Positions 18,799 to 19,929 of a stretch of DNA of 64,000 nucleotides are shown in pieces. Under the pieces are notes generated by a model. It saw only the letters and a program-made list of their open reading frames with translations. It did not search any database and was not told the origin of the DNA. The stretch is taken from assembly GCF_009908265.2 (NCBI RefSeq), contig NZ_JAAATX020000004.1, positions 1-64,000 on the forward strand, read 5' to 3'. Made by a program: the position numbers and the translations under genes. This DNA comes from Paragemmobacter amnigenus. GTDB lineage: Bacteria > Pseudomonadota > Alphaproteobacteria > Rhodobacterales > Rhodobacteraceae. Each line of letters opens with the position of its first letter. The stretch's first letter is position 1.

Positions 18799-19929
18799 TC
18801 AGAAGGCCAGCGCGTAGGACAGCGTCAGGCGATAGCCGCGTTCCGTCTCGGTCACGGCACCACCGGCAAGGGCCACCGACAGATGGCCCGCGCCCACGCT
18901 GCCCGTGACGCCCAGTTCGGCCTGCGGCGCGGCATGGCTTGCGACACCGTCAAGGCTGGATGCCATCCGCACCCGGCCCGTCGCAAGCGATCCGTAGGGA
19001 ACCCAGCCCCCCGCCAGCGGGGATGCGGCCTCGGCCCGCAGAACGGCCGAAACCGACCAGAAATCGCGGATTTCCTCTGCCACATCCGCCGTGCCCGACC
19101 GGTGCGCCCCCACCCTTTCGCGATAGCCCATGGCGCGGATGGCAGGCATCAGCACGGCCGGCCCCGCCTGCCACGTCCCGCCCAGCCCCGCCGCCACCAT
19201 CATGCGCTTGCCGTCAAAGGCGGCGTCTCCCGTGGCGTAGTCCGGCCTTGCCAGCCCGACATGCCCGTCCAGCATCAGCCCCCCCTGCAAGGGCAGGCCG
19301 AGGTAGAGCCCGATCGCAGGGGTCCGCGCCTTCATCACCGTCGCGCCCTGCGTCACCTCGATCCAGTCCTGCGCCAGATAGAGACCCGCCAGCCCGCCCG
19401 TATCCAGCAGGATGTCCGCGCCCAGCGTCAGACTGCCGCCCGACCCGTCGCCGCCTGAAAGCCCGATCCCCGACACCGAGGCCCAGACAGCCATCTCCTG
19501 CCCCGTGCCGGATGTCGACAGGACCACCGGCCCCGACGCCATCGCACCGGCCAGCCCCGCCTGCACCCGTCCGGCGACAAGGTCCGTGACGGTCTGCACC
19601 TGAACCACCGCCTCGGCCCCTGTCAGCGCGCTGGTGGCAGGGCCGCGCAGGCGCAGCACCAGATGCAGGGTGGATTCCTTCTGGATGTTGTAATCGGACA
19701 GGGTCCGCCCGTCCTCCAGCTGCTTGCCCGCAAAGATAAGGCGCTGCTGGTCGGGCGGGATGCCCTCCTTGTCCTGTATCTTCTGCTTGACGTTTTCGAT
19801 GGTGTCGGACGGCTCCACGTCGAGCGTGATGGTCTTGCCGGTCAGTGTCTTGACAAAGATCTGCATGGCCTGCGCGGCCTGTGCGGTTGCGATGCAGACT
19901 GCCGCCGCAGCCAGAATTGCCCGAAACAT
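18799..19929 (-). CDS. Secreted ubiquitin fused to an autotransporter-like beta-barrel
   Basis: The 376-residue product begins with a signal peptide (1-21, ending Ala-Gln-Ala). Residues 22-96 equal eukaryotic ubiquitin 1-75 except for Asp16 (Glu in human) and Gln28 (Ala in human). All seven lysines, Leu8, Ile44 and Val70 are kept. Ubiquitin Gly76 is replaced by Pro97. Residues 97-125 look like an amphipathic linker helix. Residues 126-376 alternate hydrophobic and polar residues in strand-like stretches and end [13 protein letters not shown], with the terminal Phe of outer-membrane barrels. I infer an outer membrane protein that displays or releases ubiquitin. Codon use is as GC-rich as the neighbours, so any transfer is old. 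No E1, E2 or deubiquitinase gene is near. Confidence 0.9.
19642..19866 (-). other. Ubiquitin passenger domain
   Basis: This segment encodes ubiquitin residues 1-75. Its Met1 falls directly after the predicted signal-peptidase site, so processing would give a native ubiquitin N-terminus. K6, K11, K27, K29, K33, K48, K63 and the Leu8/Ile44/Val70 patch are all present. The end reads Leu-Arg-Leu-Arg-Gly-Pro, so the diglycine needed for activation by E1 is absent. I recall the Asp16/Gln28 pair from some protist ubiquitins; that needs a database search. Confidence 0.95.

Follow-up and report, generated by a model that had tools for sequence, protein, structure and literature searches.

The 64,000-nucleotide stretch of DNA analysed here, hereafter the window (positions 1 to 64,000 of contig NZ_JAAATX020000004.1 of Paragemmobacter amnigenus, family Rhodobacteraceae), contains a gene whose product carries an almost unaltered eukaryotic-type ubiquitin between a predicted Sec signal peptide and a predicted outer-membrane beta barrel, and which is probably a minimal type Va autotransporter displaying this single ubiquitin outside the cell. 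Among related bacterial proteins with a signal peptide and a ubiquitin, the ubiquitin body is preserved without its conjugation tail. The parts of the gene, in window coordinates, are as follows.

18799..19929, minus strand: whole gene (signal peptide, ubiquitin, helix and 12-strand barrel), 376 amino acids plus stop
19936..19942, minus strand: possible Shine-Dalgarno sequence AAGGACT, 5' of the ATG, read from the sequence itself
19867..19929, minus strand: Sec signal peptide of 21 amino acids, expected cleavage after AQA, assigned with our own hydrophobicity heuristic
19642..19866, minus strand: ubiquitin residues 1-75 (E16D, A28Q), then a Pro codon where Gly76 is expected
19537..19641, minus strand: predicted 35-residue helix (mature residues 76-110) at the position of the autotransporter pore helix, from the model
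18802..19494, minus strand: predicted 12-stranded outer-membrane beta barrel (mature residues 125-355) with C-terminal Phe, from the model

The ubiquitin domain occupies protein residues 22-96, directly behind the signal peptide (residues 1-21). Its Pfam ubiquitin match (E = 2.5e-32) excludes chance resemblance, and in the phmmer alignment to human ubiquitin 1-76 it differs only by E16D, A28Q and G76P. An initial annotation of the window had reported a near-eukaryotic ubiquitin in a bacterial chromosome at exactly these coordinates, with all seven lysines kept and a signal peptide ending directly before Met1. The domain is real, given the Pfam match, the bacterial neighbours and the single copy; all seven lysines were retained in the alignment, and the 21-residue signal peptide ending in AQA agrees with our heuristic. 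The reported identity of 73 of 75 residues, with E16D and A28Q as the only changes, is accurate for that span, but the span stops before G76P, the most telling change. Neither the loss of Gly76 nor the barrel, which makes up most of the protein, had been mentioned.

Residue 76 (Gly) of ubiquitin is required for conjugation. In the window protein the tail reads Gly75-Pro76 and is followed by 279 further residues; the Gly75-Gly76 needed for E1 activation is absent, and E1 enzymes and deubiquitinases should reject such a tail. Eukaryotic ubiquitin fusions such as UBA52 and RPS27A have a nearly identical ubiquitin body, likewise N-terminal in the fusion protein; unlike these, the window protein is predicted to be exported and, for want of Gly-Gly, should undergo neither release nor conjugation. 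Bacterial ubiquitin-like conjugation systems act in antiviral defence and likewise place a ubiquitin-like protein in a bacterium, whereas the window protein has a signal peptide and no conjugation tail. An E2 profile gave no match in the source genome, but control genomes were equally silent. Three ThiF-family matches on contigs other than the window's were discounted as evidence for a ubiquitin system, since this family also matches 12 of 14 control genomes.

The protein was modelled with AlphaFold2, using an alignment of 21 rows that included one sequence (L014) which had failed the signal-peptide heuristic, and its C-terminal part was predicted as a 12-stranded barrel with a helix in its pore. 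Foldseek by itself returned only ubiquitin chains among the matches listed (best 50), and the barrel became visible in further structure comparison, where its nearest folds were autotransporter translocators (NalP, EspP, Hbp, EstA and AIDA-I). The structural alignment starts at model residue 74, right after ubiquitin, paired with NalP residue 786. Type Va autotransporters deliver their N-terminal passenger to the cell exterior, either through the C-terminal barrel or alongside it, and keep the helix in the pore. The order of signal peptide, N-terminal passenger, pore helix and C-terminal 12-strand barrel is the same here, but the passenger is a single ubiquitin of about 75 residues, where classical type Va passengers are a beta-helix, protease or lipase.

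On this reading Sec would export the protein, and signal peptidase would cleave it exactly before ubiquitin Met1. The beta-barrel assembly machinery (BAM) would then insert the C-terminal 12-strand barrel into the outer membrane. The ubiquitin passenger would come to lie outside the cell, tethered by its own C terminus via the pore helix and presumably uncleaved from the barrel. The result would be the geometry of a mono-ubiquitinated surface encoded by one gene; with the Gly-Gly tail lost, such a coat should escape both conjugation and removal.

Relatives were collected by scanning genome contigs of 84,980 species with exact query peptides, and the best 80 of 228 relatives were kept (L006-L085); two of these peptides came from residues 27-34 and 57-64, and the use of exact peptides biases the relatives' identities upward, towards the query. 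Start codons of the relatives were picked by script, and two records are duplicates (L002 repeats L008, and L087 repeats L009). Signal-peptide counts refer to 81 sequences, the window protein and L006-L085, with L005 outside the count. A signal-peptide-like segment ends right before ubiquitin Met1 in 67 of them (66 of the 80 database loci and the window), with Ala at -1 in 60 of the 67. The heuristic excluded 14 rows (L014, L016, L021, L025, L028, L042, L048, L050, L055, L059, L066, L073, L080 and L082), some of which may be eukaryotic contaminants, some misplaced starts or cut contigs, and some another layout (tandem pairs).

By record title the carriers belong to Pseudomonadota, Actinomycetota, Bacillota, Planctomycetota, Verrucomicrobiota, Cyanobacteria and others, although many are metagenome-assembled genomes (MAGs) and labels can be wrong; 15 of the 66 database loci are neither MAG nor single-cell by title, e.g. 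Conexibacter, Dyella, Cohnella, Saccharibacillus, Rhodopirellula and Pseudohaliea. The C-terminal parts among the 67 proteins match Autotransporter in 21, SLH in 6, IPTL-CTERM in 5, fn3 in 5, InlB-B repeats in 4 and a type IX secretion system (T9SS) tail in 1, the SLH domains being borne among others by the Gram-positive relatives L040 and L065. LPXTG-like tails and one dockerin-like end were seen by eye, and four relatives (L038, L047, L067 and L078, at most 108 amino acids) are barely longer than a signal peptide plus ubiquitin. These carrier proteins suggest a cell-surface role. Pfam ubiquitin matches numbered one per carrier genome in 19 of the 20 searched and two in the other. Another signal peptide-ubiquitin (88% identity) lies on plasmid pRUMAL01 of Ruminococcus albus 7; 3 of 72,556 plasmid records matched, over the ubiquitin part only, and no match was found among 50,697 phage records. 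The D16 and Q28 of the window protein are common to 20 of the 67 ubiquitins, and a domain of 75 residues offers little information for a tree of donors.

Bacterial ubiquitins this close to the eukaryotic form had been called very rare in the initial annotation. Per genome this is so (3 of 394 genomes in the family and 1 of 398 in a phylum draw, the window's genome being counted in both, and the phylum draw perhaps saying little on the rest of the phylum, as all other genomes listed from it belong to the window's family); near-uniqueness is not, in view of the 228 relatives and the 66 of 80 kept that look like signal peptide-ubiquitin proteins. Presence within genera is patchy (2 of 6 and 4 of 16 genomes).

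Over the 67 proteins, a set biased towards the query, 60 of positions 1-71 show the human residue in at least 85% of the sequences, and Leu8 (94%), Ile44 (94%), His68 (93%) and Val70 (85%) are mostly human. The conjugation tail decays from Arg72 (human residue in 72%) through Arg74 (39%) and Gly75 (25%) to Gly76 (10%), Gly75-Gly76 being intact in only 5 of 67. A protein-level constraint had been proposed at the outset, with dN/dS (the ratio of non-synonymous to synonymous substitution rates) as its check, and the ubiquitin dN/dS of 0.05-0.16 between the window and L006, L007 and L008 agrees with it. Non-synonymous divergence is lower in ubiquitin than in the rest of the protein in 15 of 16 pairs compared, and dN/dS is lower in 10 of the 11 pairs computable for both parts. 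Three Saccharibacillus pairs gave 0.06-0.07 in ubiquitin versus 0.29-0.32 in the rest; the flanking DNA is colinear in the sole pair checked (L065-L077).

Compared with 20 homologues, the window protein is 78-97% identical in ubiquitin and 11-38% in the barrel. Mean ubiquitin identity is 0.80 within the Rhodobacteraceae rows and 0.84 between these and the others, the corresponding barrel values being 0.30 and 0.16; taken across all 210 pairs, ubiquitin and barrel identity show a weak correlation (Spearman 0.23). In two Prochlorococcus loci (L057 and L076) the barrel DNA is 83-91% identical, whereas the signal peptides, at 48%, and the DNA upstream, at 47%, show no apparent kinship; synonymous differences reach a proportion of 0.76 in ubiquitin versus 0.28 in the rest (Fisher p about 4e-9, the numbers of sites being estimates). 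This contrast indicates that the barrel stayed the same while another signal peptide-ubiquitin unit, encoding nearly the same ubiquitin, was joined to it. Such a replacement, of which this is the one clear case, would be a sign of selection on ubiquitin itself.

Some of these comparisons count against the proposed reading. The idea of a specially conserved receptor-binding (Ile44) face was rejected: its residues are conserved no better than the remaining exposed ones (Mann-Whitney p = 0.31), which gives no pointer to a classical ubiquitin-receptor target. The same test, which sorted residues into core, Ile44-face and other exposed classes and omitted positions 27-34 and 57-64 as a source of scan peptides, found the core better conserved than the exposed positions (p = 0.001). 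The exceptions to the divergence pattern are the pair L045-L074, where non-synonymous divergence is not lower in ubiquitin, and L032-L057, with a dN/dS of 0.31 in ubiquitin versus 0.15 in the rest.

For the function of the displayed ubiquitin, a tentative but quite possible reading is that it serves as a ligand recognised by ubiquitin-binding proteins in other organisms, eukaryotic grazers or hosts being the most plausible of these. As targets these are favoured over bacterial rivals, and no result decides between them. A doubtful extension is that a signal peptide-ubiquitin cassette is shared and traded among bacteria of several phyla, which place it N-terminally on surface anchors of their own (autotransporter barrel, S-layer domain, IPTL-CTERM tail, T9SS tail or repeats), forming without E1, E2 or E3 a permanent, deubiquitinase-proof mono-ubiquitin coat aimed at ubiquitin-recognising proteins in eukaryotic grazers and hosts.

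That the displayed ubiquitin instead poisons or blocks related bacteria on contact, as an antibacterial factor, is rather unlikely, although the secreted BfUbb of Bacteroides fragilis, the nearest studied protein, provides a model. BfUbb is 63% identical to human ubiquitin (PMC3352274), is attributed to a eukaryotic or viral source and is present in some strains only (PMC3352274, PMC5705921). It resembles the window protein in a signal peptide cut exactly before Met1 and in the loss of the terminal glycine, and it inhibits other B. fragilis strains, an immunity gene seemingly not being needed (PMC5705921). The patchy presence within genera and the module exchange would suit a weapon. However, BfUbb is a free, diffusible 76-amino-acid antibacterial protein, whereas the window ubiquitin, 73/75 identical to the human one, belongs to a 376-amino-acid barrel fusion and is predicted to be membrane-tethered; the many phyla and different anchors also suggest a target broader than close kin. 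No immunity gene was noticed in the window, though no search aimed at one was made.

The ubiquitin might also be a structural cap, merely a very stable N-terminal domain without a ubiquitin-specific partner, which we consider fairly improbable. The conservation of the core over exposed positions and the unremarkable Ile44 face are as expected of a cap, very different surface proteins are headed by ubiquitin, and one drifted paralogue (L005, described below) exists, as this explanation would allow. Against it, many exposed positions too are identical to human ubiquitin, and the module that was replaced in Prochlorococcus was again a ubiquitin, where a mere cap would be expected to drift or give way to other folds.

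The autotransporter assignment itself has points against it. The Pfam Autotransporter (PF03797) score of the window protein, 25.2 bits, is below the cut-off of 26, which 6 of the 7 barrel-type relatives tested exceed; the nearest tested relative (L006) has no Autotransporter match, and direct hmmscan at E up to 1 did not return the family for the window protein. The fold match is not independent, AlphaFold2 having been trained on these autotransporter structures. The fast folding of ubiquitin could moreover impede its transport and might even block export, which would leave the ubiquitin in the periplasm, beneath some other type of barrel. We regard this arrangement as very unlikely: the closest folds are autotransporter translocators aligned from just behind ubiquitin, and the Gram-positive relatives L040 and L065 bear SLH domains. 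Contamination or an assembly artefact of eukaryotic origin is extremely unlikely, even though some database loci resemble contaminants (e.g. L050, a four-unit polyubiquitin), because the gene is single-copy in its source genome (37 contigs, 99.99% complete, 3.21% contaminated) on a contig of ordinary bacterial genes conserved in congeners, and since its ubiquitin part is in frame with a bacterial signal peptide and barrel, has a third-position guanine-cytosine (GC) content of 0.88 and recurs in the same layout in strain-titled records (e.g. Loktanella sp. 5RATIMAR09 and Rhodosalinus sediminis).

The components of this system are known, and single cases are already annotated as 'ubiquitin family protein' in databases; their combination and spread over phyla is without report in the open-access literature listed, database annotation being outside that scope. 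No report of a ubiquitin autotransporter or a surface-anchored bacterial ubiquitin was found in the same literature, to which subscription papers and preprint servers do not belong. Ubiquitin is regarded as the archetypal eukaryotic protein. If many phyla do display a nearly unaltered, non-conjugatable ubiquitin on the cell surface, other organisms would meet external ubiquitin far more often than thought, or, alternatively, the ubiquitin sequence would be maintained by something other than the conjugation system. The latter case would be a natural experiment, with ubiquitin evolving outside E1-E2-E3, its tail decaying and its body kept.

The gene is flanked by the following features.

20018..20094, minus strand: tRNA-Arg(TCT), directly upstream of the ubiquitin gene
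17532..18779, plus strand: mandelate racemase-like gene, convergent, at the other insertion border

The tRNA-Arg(TCT) and the GNAT gene following it were found in 17 congeners, none of which (17/17) has a ubiquitin gene in the 1.5 kb on the opposite side. In 7 of the 17 the same mandelate racemase-like gene sits no more than 1.5 kb from this tRNA, with no ubiquitin gene there, and other cargo was seen by eye at this site in the 12 congener loci viewed. Judged by this comparison, the ubiquitin gene is an insertion on the variable side of an otherwise conserved tRNA-Arg locus. As for signs of a mobile element, 20 bases from the tRNA end did not recur in the window with up to 3 mismatches allowed. 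In the congener G011, an integrase-like open reading frame (by eye) occupies the same tRNA-Arg site (L124, 367-1464).

Ubiquitin was present in 2 of the 19 genomes of the genus, the window's and one of 18 congeners (G012), where the gene lies at a different locus and is identical to that of L008. The gene is thus not absent from all relatives, as an artefact might be, same-layout genes being found in other records as well. The initial annotation had taken the GC-rich codon use as a sign of long residence in the lineage; this seems right for bacteria, not for the genus, where 17 of 17 congeners lack the gene at the tRNA-Arg site and 1 of 18 has a ubiquitin. The picture would be one of an old bacterial module, patchy and mobile, that arrived at the window locus more recently. 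G012 also has a second paralogue of the same layout (L005, about 1354-2676, plus strand), whose ubiquitin-like domain has drifted to 21 identities over the aligned stretch.

Further observations concern the relatives and the window. Four loci (L055, L066, L073 and L080, about 5000-6400), mostly actinobacteria by title, carry two tandem genes of ubiquitin plus a TGVVTYQ/TGVVSYQ-type domain, mostly with FTG at the end and without a clear signal peptide. Tandem signal peptide-ubiquitin genes are also found in a rumen Clostridia MAG (L043, 5055-5276 and 5615-5839). Extended signal peptides with a common FTSSA/FTSTA-like motif, in N-terminal stretches of 40-70 residues, occur in L015, L019, L020, L033, L061 and others, titled mostly Burkholderiales or Methylophilaceae, and are reminiscent of the known extended autotransporter signals. 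In L136 (a Pseudoalteromonas shioyasakiensis plasmid) and H3, large proteins of Ig-like or tandem-repeat type begin with a ubiquitin-like domain that has diverged further (44-48%). The ubiquitin-barrel gene of an Aestuariivita MAG (L009/L087) has a frame that stops early in the barrel, from either a decayed copy or an assembly error. In the window, a consensus scan of 18700-20150 found no sigma-70-like promoter. GC content falls to 0.56 at 26001-28000, where an open reading frame (26755-27252, 165 amino acids, hydrophobic N terminus) without a Pfam match is located.
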